Positions 1-64,000 of a stretch of 64,000 bases of DNA are shown here, one piece after another. This DNA is from Aphrocallistes beatrix. Lineage: Eukaryota > Porifera > Hexactinellida > Sceptrulophora > Aphrocallistidae. Positions within the stretch are counted from its first letter, which is position 1. Every line of letters begins with the position of its first letter. Under the pieces are notes generated by a model that was given only the letters and a program-made list of their open reading frames with translations, was not told the DNA's origin and made no database searches. The translations under genes were made by a program, and so were the position numbers. The stretch is from the NCBI GenBank assembly GCA_963281255.1, contig OY725491.1:5258857-5322856 (forward strand). The letters are read 5' to 3'.

Positions 1-23
1 AATTTAAATATATAAAATCATAC

Positions 24-509
24 CTCATCAGTGAATAGAACAATATGTCTCTGTGCATTTGTCCGAAATGGGTAGTATCTCAGCACGTAATCAATTCCAA
101 CATAGCCATCTTCTTGTGAACCGGAACTTGAATAAGTCCCCAATGCAGTGTATAACTCACTGGGAGTGCCCCAGTACCCTGATGTTCCTACATATACCCT
201 GGCAGCATATGTGGAAAAAATGGTGAGGCCATATCTAAGAGAAAAATCGTGTAAATAGATCTGAAACTTAATTAAAATACTACGTATAGTTATAAATTGA
301 TACTCGCCTGTTAATGCATGTTTTACCATTTTCGGGCAATTCACTAGATAGATTTCTAATATTGCGTAGTTCAGTATTCATGGAGCCAGTTCTATCCACT
401 AAAAAGACCATATCAACACAGCTACTCTTTACATTTGGCATAATGTTGTTCCATCTTGTGTAATAGCCATTTGTAGGAATTTTCTTCGAGGCATATGTGT
501 ATGTAGTAT
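24..509 (-). CDS. Gene A VWA2, first two exons (308-509, 24-234)
   Basis: Exon 308-509 encodes a linker and the metal site CVDMVFLVDRTGSM (DxTxS, intact), ending TCINR. Its donor is CAG|GCGAGT, a GC donor that recurs in gene B. Exon 24-234 encodes YGLTIFSTYAARVYVG, a WGTPSEL helix start, EDGYVGIDYVLRYY and IVLFTDE. Its length is 211 bases, as needed to keep the 804-base VWA2 module in frame; the matching gene B exon is one base shorter. The third exon lies left of the window. Confidence 0.85.
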
Positions 510-2211
510 CTAAATTGTTATTTGATTTATTATTTTTGAAATAGAAATTATGAAAGTAATTTTGGATTGATAATTATAGAAATAGTTACCTTCAGGATCA
601 CACTTTATTCCTTGTAAAATACTCTGAGAAAACAGTAAAAATGCCTGAGTAGAACAAAATGAGGAAGTAGGTATATCAAAATAACTCAAATCGAAACTTG
701 TTCCATTGGTATTCCAGGCCAACTTCACGTAGTCTAGGAAATTATCTTCATGTCCTGTTCCAACTGAGTAACTAACATCCGATGTAATGTCTAAATCGTT
801 GCTACAACTAGAATCTGAATAGTTTCCAAATCCGATTTGATCGTAGAATGTCATTCCAACTAGTCGATATCTACTTTGTTCGTTGGTATCTCCGTAGTAT
901 TGAATTCCATTGGTAAACACGCTTAGAGTTATGTTGTTCGTAGTTAGAAGTAGGAGAGTGTTTTCGTAGGTATATTGCTGTGTTGAAGCGATTGGAAGGC
1001 GAGACTAAAATATTAATTTTCAATGATATTTTCCTGTTAAAATTAAGTTATTTCATTTAAAATAGTCCTGCGTACAATATGGGACTTATTATATGCTTAT
1101 TTATTATATCTAAAGAAGATTATGTTTCATTTGATAATTGCACTATTGCATCATTGCCATAGTGTATAGAATGCTATGAACTAATTCCTTTTACCTGGTC
1201 TGTGATTAGTACTAATCTTCGTTCAACTTCGTCTCTGAAGGTGTAGGTTTCTACAATTTTTTGGATACCAGCATACGCATCTAGATGTCCAGATGTTGAT
1301 GAGCTGGGAAGAGAACTGAGAGACTGGAGATAAGAATCGAATTCTGTTGCAGTACCAAAATACAAAGTCCCGTTAATTTGAATGGGTGTTGTTGTTGCAT
1401 TAGTTGATCCGTATACTGTTAAACCGTACCTAAGAGCAAATTGTCAAGTATTTCATTGCAAAAGCTTTAATTTATTTCGGAATTATTCTCTTCCATTCAG
1501 CAACTCAAGTTACATCCTTAGAGGAAACTAGATCTAGTAGTATGCTCTATTTAAAGATTACTCAGAATTAAAATAAATGGGAGTGGCAGTAATGTTTGAA
1601 TAATTACTATTCCTTTCTAGATTCATCTATGAAAGCAATAATTATGAATGTTAAATGTTAAGGCGGATCTGTTACAGGACTTTAACCTCTTGGGGGAGGG
1701 GAATAAACAAGATATTGGTGATTTTACATCATTAAGATCTAATTATGCAGAGTGAATCTTAACTTAATTCTCACAATCCATTATAAAGTGAGATCAGAAA
1801 TTTGGTTTAAAAAAGACCTATGCACCCGAAATTTAATAAATTTAGTTTTAAAATACAAGATTTTGTCGTATAAAGCAGGACTTTAGCTTATTAGATTGTT
1901 ACCTATTAATGCAGGTACCAGAGAAATCAGACAGGTTCGCTGCTAGAGTAATCAAATTGTTCAGTTCAGAGTTGATTGATCCACTAATATCAACCAAGAA
2001 CACCAGATCGTGGCAGTTCTGACCTCTAATAATACACTGATCCGCATTGCTGGTTGTAGTGAATTGAGAGAAAGGAGATGAATTTGTTCCAATCAAAGAA
2101 ACTAAAAATGATATAAATTTTGAAATGTGTTGTTAATCTATATTTGTAGTGCATTAGTAATATACCTATGATGAAGATGCAATGTGTAAGAAACACATTA
2201 TGAGAGATCAT
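24..2211 (-). CDS. Gene A: VWA-repeat adhesion GPCR, 5' part only
   Basis: Visible exons, in order of transcription, are 2166-2211, 1903-2101, 1195-1429, 590-1004, 308-509 and 24-234; the gene runs off the left edge. They encode a signal peptide, all of VWA1 and two of the three VWA2 exons. The domain order and near-identity to gene B (36,113 downward) imply that the rest is a VWA/Ig/FN3 ectodomain followed by a seven-helix receptor, but that part is not in the window. All visible exons are open and in frame across junctions. Introns are GT-AG except the one after 308-509, whose donor reads GC. The likely role is a cell-surface adhesion receptor; this is inferred from the paralog. Confidence 0.85.
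590..1004 (-). CDS. Gene A VWA1 third exon (odd-type)
   Basis: The exon encodes the C-terminal half of VWA1: a helix and the strand ITLSVFTNGI, then RLVGMTF, GFGNYSDSS, DYVKLAWNTNG, SFDLSYF, and a cysteine-flanked end (FCSTQ ... GIKCD). The Cys-containing end is shared by VWA1, 3, 5 and 7 and absent from the even-numbered ones. The donor is in phase 1. The exon matches gene B 34497-34911 base for base in length. Confidence 0.85.
1195..2101 (-). CDS. Gene A VWA1 (exons 1903-2101, 1195-1429) and start of its third exon
   Basis: Exon 1903-2101 gives the first VWA strand and the metal site, DLVFLVDISGSI, a full DxSxS MIDAS motif, and ends in CINR. Exon 1195-1429 continues with YGLTVYGS, the helix around HLDAYAGIQKIV and the strand LVLITDQ, which supplies the second Asp expected near the metal. 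The third VWA1 exon is 590-1004. The three exons are 199, 235 and 415 bases, in total 283 codons, with phases 1-2-0-1. VWA domains with an intact MIDAS usually bind a ligand through a divalent cation. Confidence 0.85.
2166..2211 (-). CDS. Gene A exon 1: start codon and signal peptide
   Basis: This 46-base coding exon starts MISHNVFLTHCIFII and ends with a GTATA donor in phase 1. With the first codons of exon 2 (VSLIGT) it makes a typical signal peptide: hydrophobic core, then small residues. The ATG is the only one that joins this core in frame to exon 2, and the same exon stands 33.9 kb away in gene B. The ectodomain should therefore be extracellular. Confidence 0.75.
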
Positions 2212-2439: not shown

Positions 2440-2458
2440 AAGCAGATTAAGATATAAT
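2440..2458. repeat. Possible remnant of a Helitron insertion site
   Basis: Here the left copy reads TATAACAAGCAGATTAAGATATAATTGG in outline: the flank, the first five bases of the Helitron end (CAAGC), about 12 unrelated bases, then the flank again. The right copy has the 2.4 kb Helitron nest at exactly this place. Helitrons do not normally excise, so the small piece could be a deletion relic of the same insertion. Chance similarity over five bases is not excluded. Confidence 0.35.
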
Positions 2459-3341: not shown

Positions 3342-3523
3342 CAGTAGAACTCGGTTAGTACGTACTCGGGTTATCATAAGACATACTTCAGCTTATACGT
3401 ACTCATTTCTCTGCACCGAAATTCATTTAATACTAGAAATATCAACTCGATTAGAACGTATTTACAGATAGCACGTGCTTTTTTCCGCTTCCCGAAGGGG
3501 TATGTCTTATCCAAGTTCTACTG
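3342..3523. mobile_element. pogo/Tigger-like MITE (ancestral to the duplication)
   Basis: The ends are inverted repeats, CAGTAGAACTCGGTTAG at the left and CCAAGTTCTACTG at the right, each flanked by TA, as expected of Tc1/mariner-pogo elements. The body has internal copies of the end (CAACTCGATTAGAACG). A copy at the same place in the other flank (39605-39781) shows that insertion preceded the duplication. No coding capacity. Confidence 0.65.
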
Positions 3524-3879: not shown

Positions 3880-3901
3880 AACATCTCTCGCGAGAGATGT
3901 T
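3880..3901. promoter_or_regulatory. 22-bp perfect palindrome with TCTCGCGAGA core
   Basis: AACATCTCTCGCGAGAGATGTT is its own reverse complement. The core TCTCGCGAGA is known from vertebrate promoters as a conserved CGCG element. It lies about 1.7 kb upstream of gene A, and the same 22 bases lie at 40104-40125 upstream of gene B. A regulatory role is inference; it could be part of an old transposon. Confidence 0.3.
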
Positions 3902-5582: not shown

Positions 5583-5926
5583 TTATACTTCGCAGGAATT
5601 ATTTTTTTCGATCCAAGTCACTGTGGATGGCTCTTCTTCAGGTTTCGATTCCCCTATCTCTTGATAGACCTCTTGAGGCATTTCTTCTTTTTTTATCCCA
5701 TATACAGGGTTTTTAAATCCACAAGTTTTGGCTGTATCATCCGCGACATGTCCGTAAATAGGTGGAAGTTCAGTATCCGACGGAGTAGGGAATGCATCAC
5801 AAGTCATATTGCCAGAAGTGGCGTATGGGTTGATGGTAATTCCCTTCGTTTCCATTAGACCTATTCCGGACTTGAAATCTTCAATTTCAGCTAAACGTAA
5901 ATAATACATAATCATATCTGAATCCA
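5583..5926 (-). CDS. Gene B C-terminal cytoplasmic tail exon
   Basis: The last coding exon (114 codons and the stop) is acidic, Pro-rich and has many Tyr: MYYLRL, INPYATSG, PPIYGHV, FKNPVYG and EVYQEI, ending NNSCEV. NPVY is an NPxY motif, of the kind bound by PTB domains or endocytic adaptors; YQEI resembles SH2-binding sites. The stop and exon length are the same in gene C. Binding partners are inference only. Confidence 0.82.
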
Positions 5927-8900
5927 CTATAAACTACAAGTAGCAGTGCTTATTATATATATACATTAATCGAGTTTTAATAGTAAGGATTTTCACGCTC
6001 TTAAACACTTTCTGGCTTAAGACCATACGCCTAAAGGAGCGACTCGAGCTTCTAGATTATCCTTTGAGATTAATTACTCTCAGTAAAGGATTAGTGTTTG
6101 AAATAAACAGTGTTAAAATGTGTTTTAAGCAGACAAAATTCATAGAAGAAGGAATAGCCTTAAATTTGTTGGCAAAGAAGAGATAATTATTCAATAGAAA
6201 CATTTTTTCATTCCAAATTATCATTGGATTAAACAAATGGATTTCACGTTTCAGAAACTTCTTTGAATTCAAGATATAAAACTGTCCTTTGATGAATTGC
6301 AAAAGGTAATAGAGCCCATGCACTCATTATTGGCATTTAATTCTCCTGAAATTGAGGGACAAAGAAAAATTTTAGAACACATTTGGATTGAAAGGAAAGA
6401 GAATCAATTCTTGAAAATACCATTGAACCATTTACACACTGCAATAAAGACCTAATGCAAGCGCTTGGGGATTTCGCGGTTTTGGGCTTTCAATCATTAA
6501 AACGCTAGAGTTTAGAAAAACTTCAATCCCGAAATTACTAGCGATTTAGGAATCAATCCAGTGATTTAGAAAACCCCAACAGACATTTGAAGGAAATAAT
6601 AAAAAAATAGAGCAAATATGTATTTTTGTAAAATTTCAACCCATACATCAAACTTTCCGGTAAAACCAAACTGGGGATGGATTGAGTTTAAAATTTTGAA
6701 AATTTTAATGCTGATATATTTCTGCGTCGCTATGAAACCCAATTTGATAAATTGATGCTATATCGTGAATACTGCCATAGCATCGATAGGCAATATGTTA
6801 CTTTTCATTCAGTATTACGTACAGTAGATATAGGATATAGTAGTGATAATTTGACCAAAAGCAACGCAAAAATATATCACCATTTCATTAAAAATTTCGT
6901 TAGATTTCAAATCAATTCATCCCCGAGTTCAATTTACCAGAAAGTTTGATGTAAATAATGCCTCAAAGTACGTTTAAAACAGTTCAGAAATGAACAATTT
7001 GGAACGAAATATAGGCTATTGCGCAACAGGATTATGACTAATCATGATTTTCTCAACGGATTTGCATAGTTTGATATCATGCTTATATGCTTATAATACA
7101 TTATTAAGGTCTATTATGCATGGATAATACTTTATATGTTGTATATATATATTCGATGGCCTTGCATTAATCGATGGTCACTCGTCGAGTCTTCTCGAAG
7201 TTAGTGAATAGGTCATTTATATAACGTAGGTCACGAATAACGTTACTATATTGTATGGTAATTATTAATTTACTCTGAAACATGAATATTTGAAAACAGC
7301 TGAATCTTTCTGATTGAAGCATTCTATTAACGATCCTTTCTAAATTATTTGATATCAATTGATATCACTTTGTGTCACCTTTTGTGTCGCTATAGTAAAT
7401 ATAAATCTAATATAAACTAGATATAATTTGATCAACTTACCATAAATAACTTCACCCCCTGGATTCTTTGCCATTGAATTTTCAAATACTAAATTTTCAG
7501 GACCAAATTTAGTAGCGTCATCGTAAGCTCGGTTTTCAATGACATCTCTTAGTGGAACTTCTCTCTGAAAAACGTCAGTCTCATCCTGTTTTCTGGTTAT
7601 TAATAATATGACCTGCCTGTTTCTGATAACAATGACAAAGAAGAATACGATTCCCATCAAATCATTCAAGAGTACAAACCCCCATTCAATCAAGCCAATC
7701 CACTGATATGCCACTTCGAAATGACGCAATGAAGCGTAGAAAAGAAGGAATATCCATGGTACGATTAGGAAGCAGCTAAATACTCCAGTGCTAACTAATA
7801 TGTGTTTGATGTGTTCTCGTTGCTTTTCGCTCTCAATTCGCTTTTTGACAGACATAAACCTGAAAGAGGACACTACAGCCAACAAAATGGTCACAATAGA
7901 TAGAACAAATACAGGCCCAATGAGACCAACCACGACGAATTGCTTAATGGAAGGGAAGCAGTGCTTAGTGTTATCAATATACTCGTCTAGCTTTAATGCG
8001 ACTGTAATCACGGGGAATATCAGTGGGACTGTCCATGCGATTATAATGAGGTAAGGATATACTTTTCTTCTTTTGTTGATACCTAGCGAATTGAGAAGTT
8101 TTAAAATACGTAATAAAGTATATATACTGCTATGCAGGGGCGGATACAGGGTTTAGACTCAGGGGGGGGGGCAAAAGCGAGCGAATGTAATGGGGGGTCT
8201 GAGGGGAACCCCCCAGAAAAAATTTTTAACTTTAGGTGGTCAAATATCACTGTACAGCAATTCTTATCAAATCTCATACGGGATTTGAATTTCCTTCCTG
8301 TAACCTGATTACCACTTTGTACTTCGCGCCAATTCATCACAAGCGTTAAATCGGATTTCAATACTCATTTTAGTAGTGAAGAAAGCACTGAAATACAACT
8401 AGAAATATAAAAAGAACACGACTAAAACAAAAATTCAAACCTTCTTGGACTACTACTATGGGCAAACTTTGAGATGACGTTTTCAATGTTTACACGGATG
8501 TCCTTATTACAAAAAATGAGAGCAAGACTAGAAAGTCGCTCTTCAACCATAGTAGACCTCAAGTACGTTTTAAGTTTTCACCTCAATCGAATCTAAATGG
8601 AAACTCGAAGCTAATGTTGGAGTATTTGTCTCAAATAAAGGAATAATTGTTACACTTATGGGTTAATGTAAATCAGATCTGATGAAATTGTTGCAGTGCA
8701 AACGCGAGATTGGTGTACACGCGTGTACACCAATCTCGCGTTTGCACTGCAACAAAATCATTAAACACGGAATAATTGAATTGAAGAAAGAAGTATCTTA
8801 GTAGATATCATTGGAATTGAGAAAATAAACTCATATAATTGAGGGCTAAAGTTCACAAATCTGGGGGGCTAGGCCCAAATAGCTCCCCCGTAGATCAATT

Positions 8901-11900
8901 CGTAAAATTTTCAGGGGGGGCCATGGCCCCCCTGGACCCCCCCTGTATCCGCCCTGCTGCCATGACCTACTGTATATAAGGCCTCACAATAAATTGCGGG
9001 TTTGAGACTAGGGATGGGGTAGAAGAGGGTTGAACTAATACATGAGGCACCTAAAATCATTAGCAAGCAGAATAGCAGAATAAAGCTTAGGAATGTATTA
9101 CCAGCATATGTAAGTATGGTGTCAAAGTACCTATATTCGTCGTTAAAATTTAGATTAGTCGCCATATGGTTGCGCAATAGGTTATAATTGTGACAGATTT
9201 AGTGATTTTCAGAGGTCGTTTAAGGGCACTTCTAAGCATTTTTGATATTTTGCATAAAGCTGAGATGTGAATGGGTTGATCTCTAACTTACCATAGTTCA
9301 GTTTATATAAAATGTAGATGCCAAATAAGAGACACCATGTGAAGACTGTAATCCAAGAATAATGAATGATCCCAGCCAATATTTTACAGAACCAATCGGG
9401 GAAAATATCAGCCCGAATTCCATACAGCGCAAATATCCCATTCGCAATCAGCAATGCCAGTGCGAGATTGAAATACAGTATGTTGATTTCTACTTTGAAG
9501 AATCCCTTTCTGCTTGAGAATATAAAGAGGAGCAAAGACAGGATGAGAAATACGATTGAGATGAAAGACAGCACGTAACTAATGATAGACAGATAAAGAT
9601 CCCAATCTACAACTACTGTTGTTGCGGTTGGGGTATCGAATATAGCAAAACTTGTAAAGTGATTCGTCTCCAATTCGGTCATATTCTCTGAAATGACGTT
9701 TGTGAGAATTCCGCTTTTAACCCAAGCATTTCCTCTCAGGTAAGTTCCTGACTGGATTGAGGAACGTCTTGCATGAGTTGGAAGAGAGATAGTAGCCTAA
9801 ATGTAAATTATAATATTTTCTGAATTTGAAATGAAATACAAATGCTTAAGAATGCAATATTTTACAAATATATCTTGTGATTCAGTAAAGATAATATATA
9901 GCCTACTCTAATAATGCTTCACAATAGAATAACTAAGGATTCGGTAATAGCTGAATGGATTAATCCGCGATTAGCCTATAATCGTTAACCATGCAGAATA
10001 AGGGGGAGCCTGCACATGTCAGAATTTGGAGTTATAATTTTGTCAGAATATCTAGTTCTGCACATGTCAGAATAGGCTATTATAGAGTTCTGCACTCAAT
10101 CACCTCGTCACGAAATTAAAAATGCCACTTTCAGACTCAAATGGACACTATTCCGAACATAAAATGCCTCTTTCCACACTTTTATTTCACATATTACTCT
10201 CGAAACTGCTCACTTTCGCTCCTCCATTCTTTCTAAAAAGAAATAAAATGCCACTCAACCACCCTCCCACGAAACTAGAGTAGAACTTGACTCTCATTCT
10301 AACAAAGTCATAACTCGATACAACTGATTCTGACATGTGCAGAACTCTAGAAAACCGATTCTGACATGTGCAGAACTCTATAATAGACGATTCTGACAAG
10401 TGCAGAACTACAGTGGAATTTGCTTATTAGGAACTCCCTTATTAGCAATATTGCTCTATTAGTAGCCAATCTTCAGGTCCCAGGTGAAGATCTTGTGTTA
10501 ACTCTGTTCCCTTATTAGCAACCATTTTATGAGCAAAACTCGAGTTGCTAATAAGCGAATTCCACTTAGAGGCGTAGCTAGGGTGCGGCACATGGGGCCT
10601 AGGCCGCAACCTCAAAGGCTGTGCCCACTAAAATCTCACAAATTAGTATTGGGTGCCGCAACCCTCTCACGGAATTGCCGCACCCTTAAATTGTGCTGGC
10701 TACGCCTTTGATTGTAACTATTGTTAAACTCTAAATAAAAACACAAATTTTCATGTTCTTACTGGCTCCAAGCCTGAGGAACTTCGGATAAAATGTATTG
10801 CAATTTTATTTGGGCATGTCTAATTTCCGGGACGGGACGGCATCCAGGCTAGGTATCTTAACCCGTCCCGTCCCGGAGATTAGGCCTCTTTACCCATCCC
10901 GTCCCGGAGATTGGGCATGCCCTTTTATTATTTTGTTTTCAACACTTGTGTAAACCAAGAAACTCAGTTGTATCTTCAAATCGGTAAATTATAGATCTCA
11001 AATATACCATTTAATATAGCTACAAATTTACAGAACTCACATCTTTAGATAATGATACATTCGTTAAAATACTTGGTATGTCAACAATCACAATACTCGA
11101 GGCGTGTTTAGTACCACTTCTTTCTCGATTGGGTACTGCTGAATCCAAATTCAAGATTGCCACAAATATCTAAAAGAAAGAATACTAAAATATATCTTAT
11201 ACAGGCGATTATAATGTTTATTGTAATGGATAACTATTCATACCTTAACATTAATTTGGCCATCTGCTAATCCCACCAAGGTATCTCTAGAAATCTTCAC
11301 ACTCTCCATAACAGTATCCGCTACATCGATGGGCAAAGAGAGTTCTTTTGGTTGGTCTTTGATTGGAAGGTTTACTCCAAATACTTTGGCATATTTTGAG
11401 TTGATAATAACAGTTTCTTGCGTTGAATCGTTCAGTAAATGAGTGTTTCCTAAGTTCCGGCTGACCTTTCCAATTGTTCTCAACGTGACAGTTAAAGCAT
11501 CTGATGCAAGGGAAATTGTGCCCTATGAAAGAATTATAGAATTCAATTAATCTTTCAAATGCAAATATGCACATCATTAATAAAGTATTAATTTAAATAC
11601 GTTATTTAAGGCTTCAGGAGAGAGAATCGGAGTGTCAACACCAGCATCAAGTTCAGTGTCTTTAACAGCGATTACGCCAGCAGTATTCACAATCCTCTCC
11701 GCATCGTCAAGTGGTAAGGCAGTGTCGTTATCAGTTATTTTGTCTAAGAGCACTTCATTCACGTCAGCTGCTTTATCTAGGGTGTCTCTTGTCTTCTTTG
11801 TATCCTCAGGGGGGGCATTGTCCGTGTTTGGAAGTGCTAGTCTTATGGTGTCTGCAACTTCTCCAGCCTCTTCTGGATTGAATCCAGCTACCTCAATCTC

Positions 11901-15189: not shown

Positions 15190-15235
<46 letters not shown>

Positions 15236-41824: not shown

Positions 41825-42168
41825 TTATACTTCGCAGGAATTATTTTTTTCGATCCAAGTTGCTGTGGATGGCTCTTCTTCAGGTTTCGATTCCCCTATC
41901 TCTTGATAGACCTCTTGAGGCATTTCTTCGCTTCTCATCCCATATACAGGGTTTTTAAATCCACATGTTTTGGGTGTATCATCCGCGACCTGTTCATAAA
42001 TAGGTGGAAGTTCAGTTTCCGACGGAGTAGGGAATGCATCACAAGTCATATTGCCACAAGTGGCGTATGGGTTGTTGGCAATTCCCTTTGTTTCCATTAG
42101 ACCTATTTCGGACTTGAAATCTCCAATTTCAGCTAAACGTAAATAATACATGATCATATCTGAATCCA
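41825..42168 (-). CDS. Gene C C-terminal cytoplasmic tail exon
   Basis: 114 codons and a stop. Motifs: NPYATCG, PPIYEQV, FKNPVYG, EVYQEIGE, end NNSCEV. Most Tyr are kept relative to gene B while flanking residues vary (YGHV/YEQV, YGIKK/YGMRS). Confidence 0.82.
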
Positions 42169-54100: not shown

Positions 54101-57100
54101 GATCATCAATTTTACGTTTTTTAGTGGATCCACTTCTAAGAATGAAGAAGCTCCTTCTGCCATTAATGATACAATTCTATAAATTATTATAGTAAATGTT
54201 AGAATAAGAATTAAATTTGTAGTATTTACAAAGAAAAGCCTATTAATTCTTGAATAGCATTAAAATCTCAGGCGCATGCGCCTCGTCGGTGAAGCGCATG
54301 CGCCTCGTAGCTGAGGCGCATGCGCCTCGTCGATTTTAATATATGCCTATTTGACATTTATTAGCATATAATATCTCTAATTAGTTAATATCACCAATTC
54401 TAAACAATTCCAAAGAGAATTGTATCAAGAATCGGATTTTCGGACATCGAGGGTCAAAAAATTATCTTCCGAAACTTAAAATTATCTTCCGGGACTTTTG
54501 ATGTGTTTTCAAGGATGCTTTTGACTAACTTCAATGAAATTTTGGTCTTGTTCGGAATTTTCTTTGGGGTTTTCGTCGATTACTCCTGGACTGAAAAGGT
54601 GCCTAATTTACGGGACGGAATGCCGTCCCGTCCCATAAATTAGGCATGCCCAAATTAACAAATGTGACAAATACGTTAAATTGTCTAATAACTTGTAAAT
54701 CATTGGATTTAAATGTGGATATTACTTGTATATTATCGCTTAATAGAAAGTAGTCTATTCGTTATCAAAATGATTTAAATTTGAATGTCTAGTTTTTGCT
54801 GTTTTCAGGATATAACCCCAACTGACCAAAATGCGTTTCCATAGCAACGCTGGAGTGTAGCAACATTCCATGAATGAAATATCCAAGTGTTTCGCATCAA
54901 ACTATTACACCTAGATTCCCTACGAAAAACCTCATATTAAAAACACTCAGAAGTGTCCTCAAACCAGCTCACTAAATTTGTCAAAAATATTGCCCATTGC
55001 GCAATCATATGATGACTAATCTAAATTTTAACAACGGATATGGGTACTTTGATACCATATTTATATATGCTGGTAATACATTCCTAAGCTCTATTCTTCG
55101 TAGTTAATAATTTAAGGCAGCTCCTGTATTACTTCAACCATCCTCTACCGCATCTCTAGTTCAAAATCTGCTACTGTGAGGCCTTATATGCTATGGAACT
55201 AGCTTACTCGATGCACACAGGATAATGCGAAAATGCTACTACAAACGTCTATCTCTCTTTCTAGCTAAGGTTATTCATTGAACTCACTTGCTGGCAAGGT
55301 ATCAACTGCAACCTCATCACTAGAGGCACTAGTCCCATTTATATTAACAGCCTCCACTGCAATGTTATACTGATTGTGTTCTTCAAGCTGTTGCAGTAGC
55401 ATGCTATTCCTATCATGAGCTGGATAGACTGGAATTTGGATTGTGAATTCTTCAATACTCCTTTCTGTATCGAATTGAACTCCTCTAAAGTATATTCGGT
55501 AACCTGTTATGATACCGTTTTGTGCACCGATAGGAGGAGGATCCCAATATACTTGAATTGTTGTAGAGCTTTCGGTTTCAAGTGTCACATTTCGTGGTGG
55601 TTGGCTGGGAGCTGTGAATTAAGAAAATTAATCGAAATAATCCTTACTATTAAAACTCGATTAATGTGTGTATGTATATATATATATATATATATATATC
55701 TTTAACGAATTTATTGAAGAAACTGCCTGGCGCAGAAAGCTGATCTTTGGCATGTGGGAGTCTTTTGGCTATGGCTCCACTAAGTTCTGAGCTCAGAGCA
55801 AAATGTCGACCCATCATGGAATTATGACGTCATTGTCACATTTTTAAAAGTTAAGCAATACAGTTATTCGGGCATAACTCAGTCATTATAGGAGATAGAA
55901 TGCTGAAATTTTAATAGAATATGTATACTAACATATCTCACATATGATGTAACTATTATAAAAAAAGATGACTCATCGCTTTATTATGACGTTATCATTA
56001 CTCATCAAAAATTTTAAAATTGACAAATTTGGTGATTCTTTCGAGTGATATCGATTATAACAGTAGGACAGGCATATTTAGAGATGATATCTCCCTTATA
56101 ATTAACCAATGTGGCTCCAGGCGACCGAAGGGAGCCTCCGGCGGACACAAAGTGTCCGCCAGCCGCGCAGCGCAAGCAAGCGAAGCGCGCTTGTGCTTAA
56201 TAAAATTACAATAAATGCTATTTATCTATAATTGTTAAACGCCTGATTGTTTGTTCTCATATTAATAAGCAATGTGGCATCTTATTTTTCCTCTTAGTAT
56301 TATTGACGCATTTTTATCTTCAAAAAATTATGCATATGTCAAAATGTTTGTTCTCTAACTTCTTTATTTATAATATATTACCTGCTCCCAGTGTTCTTTC
56401 AGTAACTGAGATCTGAGGACTTCTGCCTTCATCATTCCTTGCAACAATTGTAACATTGTATAAATTGTATGGATTCAAATCGCTCAAAGTGTATTCGCTT
56501 CTCGTGGTAAGTGGATACTCTGCATCTCCAACAACTGAGACAGTTATTTGCATCAACACAGTGCCAGCATCAGATAGACCATCAGTAGGACAGGAGAGCG
56601 TATAGCTTCTAATAGGCCCGTTCTGGTGAATGGGTGGGGGGGGACTCCATTGGATAAGGAGAGAAGTAGAGTTTAGTGCTATTGCATTTGCTTCCTCAGG
56701 TCCAGCAGTAGGAGCTACATAATGAAGCATGAAATACTTGGTATTTATAATAATACAAGCACGTTTCATTCACTTGCGCTGCTCGGTCTGAAGACTCTTT
56801 GTGTCCGTCTCAGTTGCCTCGCAATATCCTTCCAAAATTTGATGTTCCAAAATATATTCTCATGCTACAAACCGTTATTAGTTTCTAACTCTTTCTAAAA
56901 TCTAATATCTGGGACATAATTATTTTTAATGATTAACAACCACTGTTTATCATAGTGGCAAACAATGGATTACTATTGAGAGAAGCCAAATATAGAAATT
57001 CTACACATTAGACGAATTTTGAAAAATATGCACGAGACAAGAATCTAACGGATTTTTAGGGATGCGATCTCGAATATCATATTTTCAAAATGCATTATAA

Positions 57101-60100
57101 ATTTTTATCTACTTTTGTTCAGAATAGATACATAAAGTGAGCAAATTCCTAAAATATTCCATTGACTATCAACTGTTGAAAATTGTTTTTAAGGGTATAG
57201 ATTTCGAATTTTTTATTTTCGAAATTATATGATAAATTATTTGTTTTCATTTGTTTACAGTTGACATACTGCATAGTAAACAAATTCTAAAAATGAGCGA
57301 GAGACTAGCTTTCAATTGACTTGTGGCTTTTAGGGGTGTACGTAGATTCCAATTATCGTATTTTCGATCTTTTATTTATAATTCTTTTGCTTACAATACA
57401 TCCATCCATAAAGTGGAAAAATTTGAAATGTATTAGTGAAAATAACAATATTTATCAACTATGGGGCTTCTGAATTTGTTTCATTCCCTAGACATTTTTA
57501 AGACCTTCCTCATTAATTTTGTCTTCCTGCCGCTTCGAAGGCTTTTCTTTAGCAATATATTTAGTTTGTTTTACTTCTACAAACCCCTATTCTTGCTTCA
57601 ATGTCTTTAAATATCGCAAAATATTTGAATGACAACACCCGACAGCCGCATTACATGCTGTAAATCAATTATTGGTCCATTTTGCAAAATTACTTTCCAA
57701 GTTCTATACACTTCCTAATCCTATCAGTAGGGCATTAATCGATCCTCAAAAAAGGTTCTTCATGATCTAGATCTAGATTCCGATCCTAACTTATAAAAGG
57801 ATCTTCGATCCGATTACAATCCCCAAAATATCCTTTCAATAATAGTCAGAGGACTATCGTTTTTAGTACAGCTCCTGGAAGGAGATGCCTTATGGTATGG
57901 ACGGCATGCAATGTCCGTCCGTCTGCGGCAGCCTGGGGCGTACTTAGTGCTTAAGTTAGTATTCAAACCATAAAAGCATTAAAAAATATATTTAATCAAC
58001 AAAAATTTCAACACTTTCACCTCCAAATTGGGGATTAAAAAGAAAAAGAATCGGATCGAATTCAGTAAAAGCTTTGATCCGATCCAGATCCCGATTCTAC
58101 TTTAAAAAAAGGATCGTCGATCCAATCCCGATCCTCAAAAAAAGGATCGCGATCCGGATCTTTCGATCATGGATCGAAAGATCTTAATGCCCTACCATCA
58201 GGCATTATCAACAATAACTATTACCTAGGCTCAATAGAATAATAGGAAAATTGAAGGATATACAGTACAAGCGCTTCGCTTGCTTGCGCTCCGCGGCTTG
58301 CGGAAACTTTGTGTCTGCAGAGTCGCCCTACGGGCGACTGGAGTTACTCAATCTAGCGTATTGTGGAAATTTGTGTTTACTTTATATATTTATTGTAAAC
58401 AAAACTTAACAAATAATTTCTTATATAGACCCGAAAATATAATATTCTAAATTCACATCCCTGAAAACCTCATGTAAACGTGAATCGTTAGAAGCGAGTC
58501 TCTAGCCTATTTTTCATAATTCATCAAATGGTGTAAATATGTGTATAAAGGTGTGAAAATATACACATATTTTAATGCTATATACTTAATAAAATAGAGA
58601 CATCTATATAGGTTATTGATTTTAAATATTAATAACGATGACAGTCTATCGTAGTGTCGCACAATGATTTCTACAATGTATCAAGAGTGTGAAGCCATAT
58701 GTATTGTACAGAAAAAGTGTGGTCCATTTTTTGTAGAAGTGTGAAAATGTATAGATCTTAAACTAAATCGTAGACTCATTATTTGTCACCTACATGCTTG
58801 CAATAAAGTAATACTTTAGAATCTCACCTTGCTGTAATGTCCTTGCAGTTAATATCTCAGTTTGATTACTGTCAAAATGCGTCACTGCAGTTATATACAC
58901 ACTGTACAGGGTATATGGAGTCAAATTGATCAGTAATACCCGTGTAGTGCTTGGACCTGTTGTTACAGACTTCATGCTAGTGTCAAAAGGATCACCACTA
59001 TAGAAAACTGTGTATGTGAATAGACTTGCTAAGCTTGAGATAGGAGGACTCCATTCAACATGGATTGAGGTGGAATTTTGTACAGTCAGAGTGGCATTCA
59101 CTGGAGGTCCATGCTCAACTAAAGAATTTATATTAGGTAAATAATTTGTTACACTTAATTCATTGAAACATGTCTATTTTCATTTACTTTGAATGTTAAG
59201 CGAGTTGACTGCAGAATCTCCCCCAATAGAATTATTGGCTAAACAGACGTAAGCTAGAGATTCTGTATCGATGTTAGATAGAGACAGATTAGCTTTGATG
59301 GATATTGCATTGTCTTCTGAGAAGCGCTGTCTGCCTACTATCAAGCTGATGGAGACATTGGGCACATTGTTAGTGGTACAGCTCACTTCTATATTCCCAC
59401 CCTTCACTTCTGAGTTTATGGAGCTGATTTTCAGAGGTACTATGGGAGAGATACAATATTAATTAACAAATAGTATACCATTAATCTTATATCGAATACA
59501 AATTATTTCGAATGGATGTTTGAAAAATTCAACGTGAATTAATAGCAGAAAATAACGTCGAAAAACATTTAAAAAGTATATTGTTTACCATAGGTCCCCC
59601 AGCTATACATCAAATTCTGGAATAGTCTCGCAGTTCTCAACAGATTTGTGGTGCTGGATGTGAAATATGTTAAATCAAATGCTAGTCCTCCAGTTTTCCA
59701 CGCCAATTCCACGTAGCTATCGTGTGGGTTGCTTGATCTTGTGCTGACAGTCACAGGTGAATATGCGTCTATAAACTGTTGAACATTGCCTCTTGTTCGA
59801 AATCCCACATAACTCTCAGATACAACTGCTGTAGCAACCATTCTAGTAATGGTAGATCCAACTCTGTAGAAATAGTTCGCATCTGTGACAACGCTGAGAA
59901 TGAAACCATTTTCTCCCAGTCTTGGAAGAAGGGATGACTTTGTCAAGGAAGAATTCACTATACTCCTGGGCTATATGATAAGAGTTCTAACAATAAAGGT
60001 TAAGTAGAATGTGTCAAAAAAGAATTTAAGTAAATAAATAAAACATCCCAAATAATCATCCATTTAGAATTTGATGGGAGTTTAGTGCACAGTAAGAATT

Positions 60101-63100
60101 TACTATAAAGATTGTTATAATACCTCATCTGTGAAGAGAATAATATGTTTGCGTATATTAGCATCCTCTCTGAAGTTATACTCTCTCAATATCGCATCTA
60201 TTCCAACATAACCATCTTCTGTAGCACCGCTTAAACTGAATGATGACAGCACTGTATACAGTTGATCAGCTGTTCCGAATTTAGCATTGCCTCCACCAAT
60301 GTTGGAGATTATAGCAGTTGACTCAAATGAAACGAGACCATACCTGAATTTAAAAGACAGAATATGTTACGCTGCTAACATTTTGGGATCTATACACTAT
60401 GGTATTCTATTCACTTACCGGTTGAAACAATTTGTGCCATTCTCTGGTAGATATTGTGCTAGGTTTTTGATAACATTCAGGTAGCCGCTCATTGAACCAG
60501 TTCTATCAACAAGGAACACCATATCCACACATTCTGACTGCATCTGAGGTATAATATCTATCCATCTCGAGTAAAGGTTTGTTGTAGACAGGTAACGTTG
60601 ATCAAAATTAAATGAGAGATCTAAATAAAACGTATAAATAATACGTATATAGCCACATCAAGGTATTCGTAATTTGTTGCAGTGTTTATATACAATACCT
60701 GTAAATTGACATGGAACATCTTGGATAACAGCAAACTCAAATATTATCGCAATAAGATGAGGGAAATATGGTGTGTTGGATTGATGGAAATATGTCATAT
60801 CGAAGGCAGAGCCTTTTGTATCCCAAGCCAAGGAGACATAGCTATGATAGATATTATTTGTAACAGAAGATGCAAGGAAGTAGGGAGTTGATACAACTGT
60901 GAGATCTGAATCATTGATTGTGGATGAGAAATTCCCAAATCCAATGTTATTAAAGAACTTCATTCCGATGAGTCTGTTTTGGGATGCTTTGTTGTGATAT
61001 CGGATGGTTCCCAAGTATGAGACAACAGAGAGAGTTATGTCGTTGGAAAGTAGAAGATATATTGTGTTCTCGTAGGTGTATTTCAGTGTAGAATTGTCAG
61101 GTTGACGTCTCTATAAGAATTTAAGCTGTAAATGAAAAATGTTTGGAAAGACGATAAGATTAATCATGAATGTATGAGTTACAAGAAATATCCGAAGCGA
61201 GTAAATGGATTCAAAAATTTGATATTCTAAAAAAAGAATTTCTTAACTGCTCGAAAAGATTTTTATAGATGGACTAGAATGATATCTATATATTTGCGGA
61301 TGACAAATTACCTCATCTGCAAACAGAACAATTTTCCTCTGTACTCCATCTCTGAACTCATAGGTCGTGACAGCGTCATGTATAGCAGGATATGCGTCTT
61401 CAGGACCATAGCCTATTGTGTTGTCTAAGCCTCTAGAGTTCAGAATGACTGACTTGAGCTGAGTGGGTGTACCGTACAAAGAATTGCTTGTAAGGTTCAG
61501 TATTTTAGAGTAATTCTGAACTCCAAATATCACAAAACCGTATCTAAAAGGAAATTATTGTAAAATAGAACAAGAAAAATTCAAATTATCAGAAAATTTC
61601 AATTATTTAAATAGAAATTCCTCTTGATTTTTTCACAAATATGCAATTTTAATCAAACTATTTGAAGTAAAATTAACCTTAAATTAACCAAGTTTTCAAC
61701 TTAAAAATATCTTATATGTTTCAATTTTAAGTAGTTATCATGTATATATTTGGAATACAATCATTGGACAATATCCAGTTACCTGTTGTTGCATGCACCA
61801 CTATTCTCTGGAAGATTACCAGCTAGTTCAGCGATCCGATTCAACTCAGTATTTATAGAAGCCGAAATATCCACAATGAATATCAGGTCTGCACAATTCG
61901 TAATGTCGAATGTGTTGCATGGGCGACCAGCTTTTGGTAAGTAAGCGAACTGTGAGAAAGGAGAGGGAATTGGTTCTAGAAGAAGAAAATTAGAAATGCA
62001 AAAACAGAATTCGGATATTATATAGCTACATTTCTCATAGACTAAATGAATATGTAGAATAGTTTAGTTGAAACAAATACCTTTTATTGTAAACTCTCCT
62101 ACTTTGCTATCTCCGCCATTAGAATTGTTTGCTAAACAGATGAACTGATAAGTGCCAGGAGATAATTCGGTGAGATCAAGAGTTTGGGAGATGGAATTCG
62201 TCTCAGTCTGAGCGTAGGCAATGCCTTCTATTATGAGAGTTAGTGTAGCGTGAGGGACACTGTTGATACCACAAGTAAATTCGTAAGGTGATGGACTGCT
62301 GTAAGTCCCTTTAAACTCAAATGATAGTGTTGTGATTTCGAGTGGTGCTAAAGGTGGAAAGATTCCATAAAGTTCCTGGAGACTTGTCTCAATTAAGCGA
62401 TTTTCCCGATTAAGCGCAGTTGACTGTATTTTGAATGAATTTTCAAAATCTTAGAAACTTCATATGTGTATTTAATCATCGCAAAATTGAAAAAGAAAAT
62501 TATAAAACAATTTTTTTTGTATTCGTTATAAAGTGAACTTATATATACCTGGATTTCCCCAAATGTACATCAAACTGTTGAAAGAGTTTCTAATGCTAGA
62601 GTAATAGTAGCTGGATCTATAGTAGTCCAGGTTGAAAGCGACACCTCCAGTTTGCCACGCCACATCTACATAATTTTCATGCGTATTGTTGTTGGAGATG
62701 ACATATTGCACAGGTGACAATGTATCAATGATTGAGCGAACAATTCCTGTGTAACCGAACCCAACTAAAGTCTGTTTAACCTTCGTAGCGGCCAGTATAA
62801 CTGCACTTGATGATCCGAATGAAGAGTAGTCTCCAGCATTGGTTATCACACTGAGTATAATACCATTGGATTGTAATGCAGATAGAATTGAAGATTTTGT
62901 GAAGCGAGATTGTACAATGCTTCGTGGCCACATAAATACATATCCGGACATTGAATTAATAAAAAATGAAATATCGATGAATCAGTTTGGCAATTCTAGA
63001 TTAAAGAGTATGTAATGATTTCTAAATATATTATTGTAATTACCTCATCAGTTAGTAGCACAATTGACTTCACTACATCTGTTCTGAAAGGATAATTATC

Positions 63101-63266
63101 TATGATGTATTGGATTCCAACAAATCCATCTTCAGTGCCTCCAGAGAAAGAGCTAGGTATCAGATTGTAGAGGATGTTGGAAGGGAAGAAGTAACCATTT
63201 CTCTCTGCACTACTGCTGCTAGAGATGTAGGCAGAAGCAGTTCTCTCAAAAGTAGTTAATCCGTAT
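41825..63266 (-). CDS. Gene C: VWA/Ig/FN3 adhesion GPCR, 3' part
   Basis: Visible exons, 5' to 3': 63044-63266, 62549-62927; 62081-62347; 61783-61975, 61312-61543, 60699-61110; 60419-60620, 60124-60343, 59589-59970; 59188-59439; 58828-59118; 56382-56714; 55288-55611; 47016-47339; 46621-46917; 45909-46510; 45551-45829; 45348-45476; 44221-44725; 43460-44101; 41825-42168. The 5' part lies right of the window. It has five FN3 exons where gene B has three. All visible exons are open. One acceptor (exon 62549-62927) reads GG instead of AG. The intron between FN3-3 and FN3-4 is 7.9 kb because of nested transposons. Confidence 0.87.
42169..43459. other. Last intron of gene C
   Basis: No gene. Aligns with 5927-7440 in parts (CACGCTCCTAAACACTTTC, GAAATTACTAGCGATTTA). 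The 370 bases at 42195-42565 have no match in gene B. Confidence 0.45.
43460..44101 (-). CDS. Gene C transmembrane helices 4-7 and start of the tail
   Basis: TM4, second loop Cys (TEHCFPS), TM5 (VVVGLVGPVLILSIVTILLA), TM6 (VFSCFLIVPWIFLIVYALLG), TM7 (WVFVLLNDLMGIVFFFVIVI), then a tail with ENPAYGDA, an NPxY motif absent from gene B. 642 bases, open throughout. Confidence 0.88.
44221..44725 (-). CDS. Gene C GPS and transmembrane helices 1-3
   Basis: GPS-like NHFTSFAIF without the usual cysteines; TM1 FYLSIISYVLSFISIVFLIL; TM2 YFNLALALLFANGIFALYG; TM3 FCKILAGIIHYSWITVFTWC. 505 bases, as in gene B. The following intron is only 119 bases here. Confidence 0.85.
44952..45070. mobile_element. GGGCATGCC fold-back MITE, copy in gene C
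   Basis: TGGGCATGCCTAATTTCCGG at the left and GAAATTTGGCAGCTC at the right, with GGCATCTTAACCCGTCC twice inside. CTATAG(TT) is repeated on both sides, as a target duplication. Gene B has an empty site here (GTAACTATTGTTAAACTC) but its own copy about 100 bases away. Confidence 0.6.
45348..46510 (-). CDS. Gene C membrane-proximal Ig and GAIN domain (three exons)
   Basis: Exons 45909-46510, 45551-45829 and 45348-45476. The first encodes the Ig (TITCTASGYPLPTIRWYNSE, IVFVCKAENRVG) and the acidic helical part (EEAGEVADTIRLALPKT); the other two encode the beta-rich subdomain before the GPS. All three lengths match gene B, so the membrane-proximal part is under constraint or the split is recent. 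Confidence 0.75.
46621..47339 (-). CDS. Gene C FN3-4 and FN3-5 (two exons)
   Basis: Exons 47016-47339 (YTILYQKASGDDAVM, LRNLEKETNYSIEIKAKN) and 46621-46917 (TITVSWNPPLLLYPDS, FSNLKPQTPYLIRIYASN). Both phase 1-1, 324 and 297 bases, equal in length to gene B 12703-13026 and 12308-12604. Confidence 0.85.
48590..48672. repeat. Tandem GAGGCGCATGCGCCTC palindromes at the MULE left end
   Basis: Four units of about 21 bases, CGACGAGGCGCATGCGCCTCA with small changes; each has a 16-bp palindrome and CpG sites. Three matching units lie at about 54272-54335 in the right end. Confidence 0.85.
48924..49368. mobile_element. hAT-type MITE in the MULE left end
   Basis: Ends CAGGGGTGTAGTG and CACTACACCCCTG; exact 8-base duplication AATACAAG (48916-48923, 49369-49376). 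An inner inverted repeat GAGCGCTTATAAAAGAATAT lies around 48955-48998. The right MULE arm lacks it and reads straight through. Confidence 0.88.
49391..49841. mobile_element. Second hAT-type MITE in the MULE left end
   Basis: Ends CAGTGTTGCCATATG and GATATGGTTACACTG (imperfect inverted repeats); flanks TTCCATTT/ATTCATTT differ at one or two bases. The interior is made of GTTCATGCCA-type short repeats. Missing from the right arm. Confidence 0.7.
50435..50930 (+). mobile_element. mariner element, internal-deletion copy
   Basis: AAAAGTTCTAATCC at the left and GGATTAGAACTTTT at the right form the ends. Only the C-terminal part of the transposase is kept. The right MULE arm has no insertion here, so it came after the MULE. 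I do not see a clear TA duplication. Confidence 0.75.
50451..50870 (+). pseudogene. mariner transposase C-terminal fragment
   Basis: The frame (open from 50406) contains KLFHDNAPAHNS with the second catalytic Asp, and PHPPYSPDLALCDFWLFQ with the third Asp 35 residues on, the DD34D spacing of mariner. It ends normally at a stop after YFEQL. The N-terminal DNA-binding part and first Asp are gone, so it cannot act alone. Confidence 0.88.
51496..52600 (+). pseudogene. LINE relic (CR1/L2/Jockey-like reverse transcriptase)
   Basis: Pieces in three frames: CTALLKVANDILFYKNQKHV with LLDLSYVFDTADHSIL (51511-51700), then GTLLFTLYTSSLFDIIRSHL and NCYADDIQIYHSF with the catalytic YADD (51904-51915), then RLQRVAARLIHNSS and LYWLPVKHRITFKI (52360-52480), the usual C-terminal motif of these clades. 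Frameshifts and stops separate the pieces; the endonuclease is absent. It ends in GACAATTCGTGACAG-like repeats. Confidence 0.85.
52843..52980. mobile_element. Small MITE with AGGCCCGGCGGAA ends
   Basis: CAGGCCCGGCGGAAG at the left and TTCCGCCGGCCCTA at the right; GTCTA is repeated on both sides (52838-52842, 52981-52985). Inner GGTCCGGCCAAA(A/G) repeats. No frame. Confidence 0.65.
52981..53172 (-). pseudogene. MULE transposase C-terminal fragment
   Basis: Minus strand reads KAWHRGFNNLMYCQHPSIWK, FIDF, then after one frameshift LKKEQGLTEIKHAFYISGRN and PPKRKCYTDKERALKNLID. The W-H..F..L.....HPSIWKFI..L..EQ..TE..  pattern is known from the C-terminal region of MULE/FLYWCH-linked transposases. 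It is the only coding trace that may belong to the surrounding long-ended transposon. Confidence 0.65.
53291..53386. repeat. Short tandem repeat of TCACGAATTGTC(TCTG)
   Basis: Six imperfect units of 13-16 bases. The reverse form (GACAATTCGTGACAG) ends the LINE relic at about 52497-52545, so this is probably the 3' tail of a second LINE copy in the opposite direction. Confidence 0.6.
54599..54653. mobile_element. GGGCATGCC fold-back MITE, third copy (short)
   Basis: GTGCCTAATTTACGGGACGG and CCGTCCCATAAATTAGGCAT face each other around GAATGCCGTCC: a near-perfect hairpin of about 55 bases in gene C's long intron. Confidence 0.6.
55288..55611 (-). CDS. Gene C FN3-3 (absent from gene B)
   Basis: 324-base exon: TIQVYWDPPPIGAQNGIITG, YRIYFRG, LLQQLEEHNQYNIAVEAVN, VAVDTLPAS. 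FN3 by the same marks. A full Helitron lies between it and FN3-2, in the intron. Confidence 0.83.
55641..56193 (+). mobile_element. Helitron family 1, full-length non-autonomous copy (553 bp)
   Basis: Starts TCCTTACTATTAAAACTCG after an A; ends with perfect hairpin GGCGGACACAAAGTGTCCGCC, then GCAAGCGAAGCGCGCTTG before a T. Same order of body motifs as 21449-21988, opposite direction. A TA microsatellite follows the 5' end. It sits in the gene C intron between FN3-3 and FN3-2. Confidence 0.82.
56382..56714 (-). CDS. Gene C FN3-2 (absent from gene B)
   Basis: 333-base phase 1-1 exon: SLLIQWSPPPPIHQNGPIRS, YTLSCPTDG, LSDLNPYNLYNVTIVARNDEG, VTERTLGAG. A clear FN3 domain with Trp, Tyr and the L..LNPY..Y motif. 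Loss or gain leaves the frame unchanged. Confidence 0.83.
56755..58268. other. Gene C intron between FN3-1 and FN3-2, left part
   Basis: Begins with a decayed Helitron end (CAAGCACGTTTCATTCAC, about 56756). Diverged family 2-like body follows, in two or three partial copies (TAGATTTCGAATTTTTTATT and similar). GGATCG-rich inverted segments lie at about 57720-58190. No exon recognised. Confidence 0.45.
58269..58790 (-). mobile_element. Helitron family 2 copy, 5' end missing
   Basis: CAAGCGCTTCGCTTGCTTGC and GTCGCCCTACGGGCGACTGG mark the terminal region; the body (TAAACAAAACTTAACAAATA, GTGAATCGTTAGAAGCGAG) matches 15790-16290 in gene B, just upstream of the same FN3-1 exon, so insertion predates the duplication. 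Confidence 0.55.
58828..59118 (-). CDS. Gene C FN3-1
   Basis: 291-base exon; SIHVEWSPPISS, YTVFYSG, LTPYTLYSVYITAVTHF. Counterpart of gene B 16325-16615. Confidence 0.85.
59188..59439 (-). CDS. Gene C Ig4
   Basis: 252-base symmetric exon; VSCTTNNVPNVSISLIVG and YVCLANNSIGGDSAVNS give the core cysteines. Confidence 0.8.
59589..60620 (-). CDS. Gene C VWA8 (three exons)
   Basis: Exons 60419-60620, 60124-60343 and 59589-59970 (804 bases). Metal site CVDMVFLVDRTGSM; YGLVSFESTAIISN, FGTADQLYT, TEDGYVGIDAILREY; LSVVTDANYFYRVG, YVELAWKTGGLAFDLTYF, MYSWGTYG. The introns are short (75 and 153 bases), in contrast with gene B. Confidence 0.87.
60699..61975 (-). CDS. Gene C VWA7 (three exons, intact)
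   Basis: Exons 61783-61975, 61312-61543 and 60699-61110, 837 bases or 279 codons. It carries a CADLIFIVDISASI metal site, with Ala in place of the Val of gene B, then YGTPTQLKSV, EDAYPAIHDAV, IVLFADE, RLIGMKFFNNIGFGN, YVSLAWDTKGSAFDMTYF and VPCQF. It provides the undamaged reference for the seven-base loss in gene B. Confidence 0.87.
62081..62347 (-). CDS. Gene C Ig3
   Basis: 267-base symmetric exon; FTCGINSVPHATLTLIIEG and FICLANNSNGGDSKVG carry the Ig cysteine pair. Same length as in gene B. Confidence 0.8.
62549..63266 (-). CDS. Gene C VWA6, second and third exons, acceptor altered
   Basis: Exons 63044-63266 (YGLTTFERTASAYIS, EDGFVGIQYIID, IVLLTDE) and 62549-62927 (LSVITNAGDYSSFG, YVDVAWQTGGVAFNLDYY, MYIWGNPG). 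In gene B the acceptor before the third exon is ATGTAG|CCACG; here it is ATGTGG|CCACG, one base changed (plus-strand position 62928). The next AG downstream is at the eighth exon base and would shift the frame. The first VWA6 exon lies outside the window. Confidence 0.83.
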
Positions 63267-64000
63267 CTGTAGAGAAATGAAAATAAATAATTTAGTATTG
63301 AAATAACTCATTTTAATTCTAACAATGACCTATTTTGCTTTGATAAGGCAAAGGGCTTACAACCTAAATCAAATAACTTTCAGTTACTATAGTTCGAAGG
63401 ATGTATGTTTTGAAATTTTGCTAAATTTCAAAACAGAAATCCTCAGAACGATCAATAATCTATGCCGCACCTAGAAAATTCCTGCTCTAGGAAGCTAATT
63501 TTTGTGTACGAAATATTCTGAGAATCATGTATTAATCAAAAAGAAATTTCACCATGGTTAATAATAATACCTAAAATTGCTGAATTTAAATGATTGCATT
63601 ATAATATAAAATGCATAAAATGTCTTGATATTTAGCTTTAGTGTATTTTATATTTATAGGATATACCCACACACTTTTAGGGCTTCCCTCCCAAAATGAC
63701 TTAACCGAAAATGAGTCAGCAAAATTCCTAGTCCGAATAAGATATTTAAAATAATCCTATGAACTATACTTCAATATTAATCTCAAGATAAACTCCCTGG
63801 ACAAAAGTATTCATACACTCCACTATTTTCCATCCAAATTGTTATAATAGTACTAATCCATTTATGAAGTCAAAAAATTTGATCAGGAGCAACAGATACA
63901 ATAAATTTGACTTAAAATTTGTTTTCTCCATATTCAAATTACTCACTTTATAAGCTTTCAACTTAATTACTCTCCTTCAAGATCAAGTAGTTTCAGCAAT
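63267..64000. other. Gene C intron up to the right edge, with Tc1-like end
   Basis: The first 360 bases match gene B 24322-24690 closely. A Tc1-like end CCTGGACAAAAGTATTCATAC begins at about 63793 and its body continues past the edge; its partner in gene B is at 26000-26386. No exon. Confidence 0.5.

Follow-up and report, generated by a model that had tools for sequence, protein, structure and literature searches.

A candidate tandem family of adhesion-type receptor genes with repeated VWA-VWA-Ig blocks in the sponge Aphrocallistes beatrix

Does one gene of the hexactinellid sponge Aphrocallistes beatrix join eight VWA domains to a seven-transmembrane (7TM) receptor, and does it do so in tandem copies? 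A sequence-only reading of 64,000 nucleotides of contig OY725491.1 (assembly GCA_963281255.1, positions 5,258,857 to 5,322,856; the whole stretch is called the window here) had proposed three head-to-tail copies of a giant adhesion GPCR gene with a repeat unit of about 34 kb. We examined the window by self-comparison, gene modeling, profile searches and substitution analysis. The reading that we favor, with a probability of about 0.7, is that the window carries one gene in at least three tandem copies, predicted by the gene model to encode an adhesion-type GPCR roughly 3,700 residues long.

Array layout and gene model

The window is 65% A+T, and tRNA and Rfam scans of it returned no matches. 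Self-comparison reveals a repeat unit of approximately 34-36 kb, with 92-95% identity in the longer paired pieces. The repeat pairs are as follows.

6-2443, paired with 33915-36345
2454-5957, paired with 38708-42199
pieces of 7331-13092, paired with pieces of 43343-47405
pieces of 16291-24687, paired with pieces of 58794-63611

All coding frames of the gene lie on the minus strand, where three copies, designated C, A and B, are arranged head to tail. The starts of C (2211) and A (36113) are separated by 33,902 bp and the stops of A (5583) and B (41825) by 36,242 bp, and the three head-to-tail copies that had been proposed are confirmed. Only copy A is whole, running from an ATG at 36113 to a stop at 5583-5585 through 38 exons and 11,128 coding nucleotides. 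Copy B lacks its 5' part, which lies beyond the window, and extends from VWA6 exon b through the stop, while copy C comprises only the first six exons (signal peptide, V1, and exons a and b of V2), all of them open. The regular ectodomain that had been claimed for each copy is therefore seen in its full order in A, but only from VWA6 onward in B and for six exons in C.

The gene model was produced by an exon-chaining script and then adjusted manually to follow the exon pattern that recurs along the gene. In copy A, exons V1c, V2a, V2b, V2c, V8a, Ig4 and FN1 were corrected, V7c was added and a spurious 21-nt exon was removed; the first exon and the last splice were placed by hand. The resulting features are listed below.

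Copy A
36068..36113, minus: first coding exon, with ATG and signal-peptide start (MISHHVFLTHCIFII, then VSLIGTNSS of V1a); hand-placed, and the same in C
34497..36005, minus: VWA1 (exons a 35807-36005, b 35103-35337, c 34497-34911); PF00092 at 27.4 bits
33348..34417, minus: VWA2 (exons a 34216-34417, b 33934-34143, frameshifted, c 33348-33738)
32149..32415, minus: Ig1; no Pfam match
30524..32055, minus: VWA3, three exons; metal site lost
28917..30455, minus: VWA4, three exons; metal site complete
28570..28842, minus: Ig2; no Pfam match
27050..28305, minus: VWA5, three exons; metal site lost
23606..26811, minus: VWA6, three exons; metal site complete
23127..23393, minus: Ig3; no Pfam match
20978..23021, minus: VWA7; exons a and b open, c (20978-21382) frameshifted
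17079..19257, minus: VWA8, three exons; A and B unusually divergent in exon a
16683..16934, minus: Ig4; sub-threshold I-set match and model for the B counterpart
16325..16615, minus: FN1; fn3 match in the B counterpart
12308..13026, minus: FN4 (12703-13026) and FN5 (12308-12604); fn3 match in the B counterparts
11041..12202, minus: Ig5 and GAIN-like region (exons 11601-12202, 11244-11522, 11041-11169)
9292..9796, minus: exon with degenerate GPS (NHFTSFAIF) and TM1-3
7441..8082, minus: exon with TM4-7 and the start of the tail
5583..5917, minus: last exon, cytoplasmic tail to stop; acceptor hand-chosen for phase, and another small exon may precede it

Copy B (41825..63266, minus; 5' end outside the window)
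63044..63266, minus: V6b
62549..62927, minus: V6c, acceptor AG lost
62081..62347, minus: Ig3
60699..61975, minus: V7
59589..60620, minus: V8
59188..59439, minus: Ig4
58828..59118, minus: FN1
56382..56714, minus: FN2
55288..55611, minus: FN3
47016..47339, minus: FN4
46621..46917, minus: FN5
45348..46510, minus: Ig5/GAIN
43460..44725, minus: TM
41825..42159, minus: tail

Copy C
24..2211, minus: 5' part (signal peptide 2166-2211, V1 590-2101, V2a 308-509, V2b 24-234)

In copy A, 35 of the 37 junctions keep frame, and the two that do not come after exons V2b and V7c, each of which carries one short frameshift and a stop. Among the junctions listed for B, to which V6b was added separately, all 19 are in phase. 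Each VWA domain is built from three exons with entry phases 2, 1 and 0 and exit phase 2, a pattern that is constant through the eight domains, while Ig1 to Ig4 and every FN3 domain are single exons of phase 2 to 2. It is these phase-compatible junctions in A and B, together with the repeating VWA exon phases, that argue for one gene. Acceptors in A are AG at 37 of 37 junctions, and donors are GT at 36 and GC at one; since AG and GT were search requirements, only the phases count as independent support and the dinucleotides add little. A GC-AG intron follows VWA2 exon a at 34215 in A and at 307 in C, and is thus kept in both.

An ATG with a signal peptide stands directly before VWA1 in A and C, in a phase that fits V1a, and a stop directly follows the tail in A and B, so that one gene is the simplest reading of the span between them. 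The exon-chain model places the signal peptide, the long modular ectodomain and the 7TM region on one polypeptide. The chaining script scores the minus strand at 1126 (59 exons), the plus strand at 6.9 and five of five resampled sequences at 2.6-7.5. Because these same ORFs served to train the coding model, the independent support comes from the domain matches and from dN/dS.

The same exons could instead belong to two adjoining genes that were duplicated together, one for a secreted (VWA-VWA-Ig)x4-FN3 protein and the other for a separate FN3-Ig-GAIN-7TM receptor. The natural place for such a boundary is the long gap between FN1 and FN4, which measures 3.3 kb in A and 11.5 kb in B, where it contains two FN3 exons. 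A filter requiring an ATG, a hydrophobic segment and a donor in a matching phase returned four signal-peptide-like starts in the FN1-FN4 gap of A and eight in the FN3-FN4 gap of B, so a copy-specific start is possible. However, no start candidate in A has a homolog among those in B (the best match covers 11 residues, E 0.37), and the accepted start, which passes the filter in A and C, has a top hydrophobicity of 3.5 as compared with at most 3.21 for the gap candidates. In those stretches shared by the two gaps that were translated, stops interrupt each of the three frames, and a single open run, of approximately 25-30 codons, is common to both; the other stretches common to both gaps, which were partly translated, are repeats. 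In addition, the FN exons that flank the gap share the 2-to-2 phase and would be left without a start or a stop. We regard two genes as a quite improbable arrangement and retain the single-gene model below.

Several further elements were observed around the exons. A TATATAAA sequence lies approximately 115 bp upstream of the ATG of C, within a stretch (2166-2443) that is approximately 95% identical to 36068-36345 in A. An interspersed repeat family of approximately 200-560 bp, with members about 75-89% alike, occurs on both strands. The intron between exons FN3 and FN4 of B holds a large imperfect palindrome, and 22-bp tandem repeats with a common GCGCATGCGCCTC core lie near both of its ends. 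Inside the palindrome is a DDE transposase fragment, which we take to be mariner-like, and frames that look reverse-transcriptase-like by eye and gave no Pfam match.

4377-4568, 17842-18374, 21439-21991, 36337-36636, 40624-40818 and 55638-56206, both strands: interspersed repeat family
47520-54561: imperfect palindrome
47520-47731/54561-54346, 48607-48923/54332-54027, 49842-50051/54020-53826 and 50130-50434/53825-53523: palindrome arms
48585-48666 and 54272-54332: 22-bp tandem repeats
50361-50867, plus: DDE transposase fragment (DDE_3, 2.9e-8)
51505-52596: reverse-transcriptase-like frames

Domains of the predicted receptor

The predicted order of domains is a signal peptide, (VWA-VWA-Ig)x4, three (A) or five (B) FN3 domains, Ig5, a GAIN-like region, 7tm_2 and a tyrosine-rich tail. 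The eight VWA domains in strict VWA-VWA-Ig blocks are thus as had been proposed, and A follows the (VWA-VWA-Ig)x4 order exactly. Copies differ in FN3 number, as was also anticipated, exons FN2 and FN3 being present in B and absent from A. The ectodomain had been said to end in FN3, GAIN and 7TM; the FN3 and 7TM parts stand, but a fifth Ig domain between the FN3 domains and the GAIN-like region had been missed. When domains were searched against Pfam, the VWA, fn3, Ig5 and 7tm_2 calls came out above cut-off, whereas GPS and Ig1 to Ig4 were sub-threshold or absent. The scan of the V2c-V7b piece of A covered V2c to Ig2, and B stood in for A from V8a to the tail.

VWA matches above cut-off were obtained for V1, for V4 and for the B copy of V8, and PF00092 was matched in six of eight VWA domains scanned singly (E up to 0.1; best 2.1e-6), V2 and V7 of A not having been scanned whole because they are frameshifted. 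A VWA profile run against PDB chains gave no match at E 0.01. Searches of viral contigs with a VWA alignment (27 pattern matches, none confirmed) and of bacterial and archaeal contigs with a second alignment (28 pattern matches, none confirmed) were null, which says little given the viral, bacterial and archaeal make-up of these collections. The fn3 profile matched five stretches of B (Pfam, 7e-64), and Ig5 matched Ig_2, Ig_3 and I-set above cut-off.

The Ig domains of the repeated blocks are less readily assigned. Ig1 to Ig3 have no Pfam match, and Ig4 of B matched only I-set at E 0.008, below cut-off. Both cysteines are invariant in all four of these domains, which also have most of a CLANNSxGG ending in common. 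A model of Ig4, computed with Ig1 to Ig3 as alignment, reached a pLDDT of 92 and is a seven-strand sandwich. The Foldseek matches of this model include Ig domains (MAG, titin-obscurin, sDscam) as well as other beta sandwiches; the best of them, and the single one to reach E <= 0.001, comes from a glycoside hydrolase. An Ig-like fold is the likeliest reading of Ig1 to Ig4. A profile comparison did not support the idea that Ig1 to Ig4 are copies of Ig5 (probability 1.7).

The metal site of integrin I domains consists of D-x-S-x-S, T and D. Among the eight VWA domains it is complete in V4, V6 and V8 only, where T or S occupies the second place. V2 lacks the threonine and has Q (copy C) or H (copy A) instead. 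The first VWA domains of the blocks, V1, V3, V5 and V7, all lack the threonine (H, N, P and P, respectively), and V3 and V5 also lack the first motif. This pattern suggests that the repeat consists of one degenerate and one mostly metal-competent VWA domain, a point absent from the sequence-only reading. A tree likewise splits the first (V1, V3, V5, V7) from the second (V2, V4, V6, V8) VWA domains with a support of 1.000; V2 was represented in it by copy C alone (exons a and b), and V2b of A was left out of both the exon alignment and the tree. With the V1 A/C and V8 A/B pairs set aside, identity is 44-50% among second domains, 30-38% among first domains and 27-35% between the two kinds, so that the first kind is grouped mainly by the tree. 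We infer that the VWA-VWA-Ig array grew through whole-block duplication.

At the membrane end, 7tm_2 was matched at 6.1e-13 (Pfam; 49 bits, cut-off 20.6). The best PDB matches for the GPS-7TM part are ADGRL3 (7wy5, 2.1e-13) and ADGRD1 (8x9s, 4.2e-9). The ADGRL3 alignment spans the GPS tryptophan into TM7, placing NHFTSFAIF over NHLTNFAVL, and with 8jmt it reaches into the GAIN-like region. As far as sequence can tell, the assignment to the adhesion-type 7TM receptors is firm. A typical GPS has conserved cysteines and tryptophans and is the place where an adhesion GPCR cleaves itself, at H-x-T/S, into two fragments. The GPS of the present receptor is sub-threshold in Pfam (E 0.033; 15.1 bits, cut-off 22.5); it keeps one tryptophan and NHFTSF (H-x-T), and the four GPS cysteines of ADGRL3 are all absent in A and B. 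The GAIN-like region has no Pfam GAIN match and, when compared alone with the PDB, gave nothing significant, and a model of the Ig5/GAIN exon built from two sequences reached a pLDDT of 34. Thus, of the GAIN and 7TM pairing that had been proposed, the 7TM domain stands, and the putative GAIN domain is a weak call, based on its position and on a degenerate motif. The tail in both A and B contains NPVY, NPY, PPIY and four Y-x-x-hydrophobic motifs, with NPAY in B only.

Evolution and status of the copies

Copies A and B differ by a dS of 0.11 and a dN of 0.041, giving a dN/dS of 0.37 over 1901 codons in 18 exons. V7c was left out because it is frameshifted in A, and exons FN2 and FN3 lie outside the comparison for lack of a partner in A. 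By domain group, dN/dS ranges from 0.22 (Ig3, Ig4) to 0.72 (tail), with no group above 1. The highest single exons are G3 at 1.22 (one silent and four amino-acid changes) and FN4 at 0.98 (4 and 13, respectively), followed by the tail at 0.72 and V8c at 0.70. Between A and C, dN/dS is 0.28 over the signal peptide and V1 (296 codons), with a synonymous distance of 0.06. These ratios indicate that the protein has been under coding constraint. The receptor reading draws on the 7tm_2, fn3, VWA, ADGRL3 and ADGRD1 matches, on the split between first and second VWA domains and on the A/B ratio. The suggested rapid evolution of the locus is not apparent from these ratios, and diversifying selection is rejected as the overall A/B pattern, with the proviso that a pairwise test on whole exons may miss selection on a few sites. 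Exon V8a (19062-19257 in A, 60419-60620 in B) is 80% identical between the two copies, as compared with 89-93% in the flanking aligned stretches, and is an outlier with a dS of 0.45; its divergence could reflect exchange with another copy.

Damaged copies had also been anticipated, and they are present. Besides the two frameshifts of A, the acceptor of V6c in B reads GG, and none of the alternative AGs checked, two upstream and one within the 60 bases downstream, would yield an open exon in frame. This is the one lesion seen in B, which is otherwise open from V6b to the stop. The lesions in A and B are likely to be disabling, so none of the three copies is demonstrably functional. The locus might then be a decaying pseudogene cluster, in which the architecture was once real and the present copies no longer make a receptor, and the transposon remains in the introns would fit such decay. 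The dN/dS values of both comparisons argue against it, as do the openness of B save for one splice site and of C as far as it is seen; furthermore, some of the lesions could be sequencing errors. We therefore consider a pseudogene cluster somewhat unlikely, though it is the strongest competitor of a gene family that still encodes a receptor.

The extra copies could also be alleles that were placed end to end by an assembly error. The synonymous distances, 0.06 for A/C and 0.11 for A/B, are of a size that haplotypes of very diverse invertebrates can reach. Nevertheless, two FN3 exons and large inserts set the copies apart, and all of them have the same orientation in one window, making the allelic origin improbable. 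The claim regarding the architecture is independent of whether the copies are alleles or true tandem genes.

Possible function and comparison with known systems

If the receptor is made, the second VWA domain of a block, with the site complete in V4, V6 and V8, might bind its ligand via a divalent cation in the manner of integrin-type I domains, and the first VWA domain would be a structural or metal-free partner. Repetition of the blocks would confer avidity toward partners that are themselves repetitive, for example matrix, a neighboring cell or a microbe. Binding or pull could then travel along the FN3/Ig stalk and reach the GAIN-like region, which would expose or shift the tethered stretch TSFAIF and thereby switch the 7TM domain, and the tail may add phosphotyrosine signaling. 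A role of the locus in self/non-self or microbial recognition, which the sequence-only reading had put forward, is conjectural. The fuller proposal is of a lineage-specific recognition family with a multivalent, cation-dependent rod (metal-free VWA, metal-competent VWA and Ig), a disulfide-free GAIN domain and tandem birth, death and exon exchange, possibly sensing self/non-self or microbes; we put it forward as a conjecture with a small chance of being right as a whole. If the favored reading holds, the main metal-dependent adhesion module of integrins and a G-protein receptor would be combined in one chain as a regular repeat, giving multivalent cation-dependent adhesion a direct route to switch a GPCR. 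The array, whose copies differ in stalk length and damage, would be well suited to studying the assembly of adhesion GPCR ectodomains, and its cysteine-free GPS would test what a GAIN domain needs.

In hemicentin, a VWA domain adjoins Ig domains. The present ectodomain resembles integrin I domains and hemicentin in the metal-site residues (D-x-S/T-x-S, T and D) of V4, V6 and V8 and in the adjacency of VWA and Ig. To our knowledge, no adhesion protein with a VWA or I domain is joined to a 7TM receptor. The adhesion GPCRs of class B2, such as ADGRL (latrophilin) and ADGRD1, likewise combine a GPS-7TM part with a large modular ectodomain, and as compared with ADGRL3 the sponge receptor keeps H-x-T and the tethered stretch. 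It differs from ADGRL and ADGRD1 in its eight VWA domains, cysteine-free GPS and many tyrosine motifs in the tail.

In the sponge Amphimedon queenslandica, adhesion GPCRs carry Ig and FN3 modules ahead of the GPS-7TM part, and a GPS was recognized in 28 of 40 of them (Krishnan et al. 2014, PMC4302439). The use of Ig and FN3 and the occasional lack of a GPS are as observed here; the accessible text of that paper has no mention of VWA or von Willebrand, and its figure legend names EGF, fn3, GPS, HRM, Ig types, SRCR, SNARE and DUF. Choanoflagellate and filasterean adhesion GPCRs similarly combine a GAIN/7TM core with shuffled ectodomain modules, and neither term occurs in the main text of that report (PMC12716839). 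A nematode receptor carries another unusual module, a C-type lectin, on a latrophilin-like GPS-7TM part, while the VWA domains of that lectin family sit on other, non-GPCR lectins in the passages available (PMC9085898). VWA domains appear only as separate genes in the available part of PMC6208332, and a VWA-bearing adhesion GPCR is absent from the passages using both terms in PMC6278862, PMC12960093, PMC9085898, PMC11045723 and PMC10471735. No such receptor was found in the open-access literature, taken as text without figures, in which a description could escape detection; the proposal that the design is undescribed holds for that text, and a description elsewhere is possible. Taken together, the sequence points to an adhesion GPCR of a known class in which the new element would be eight VWA domains in a strict repeat.
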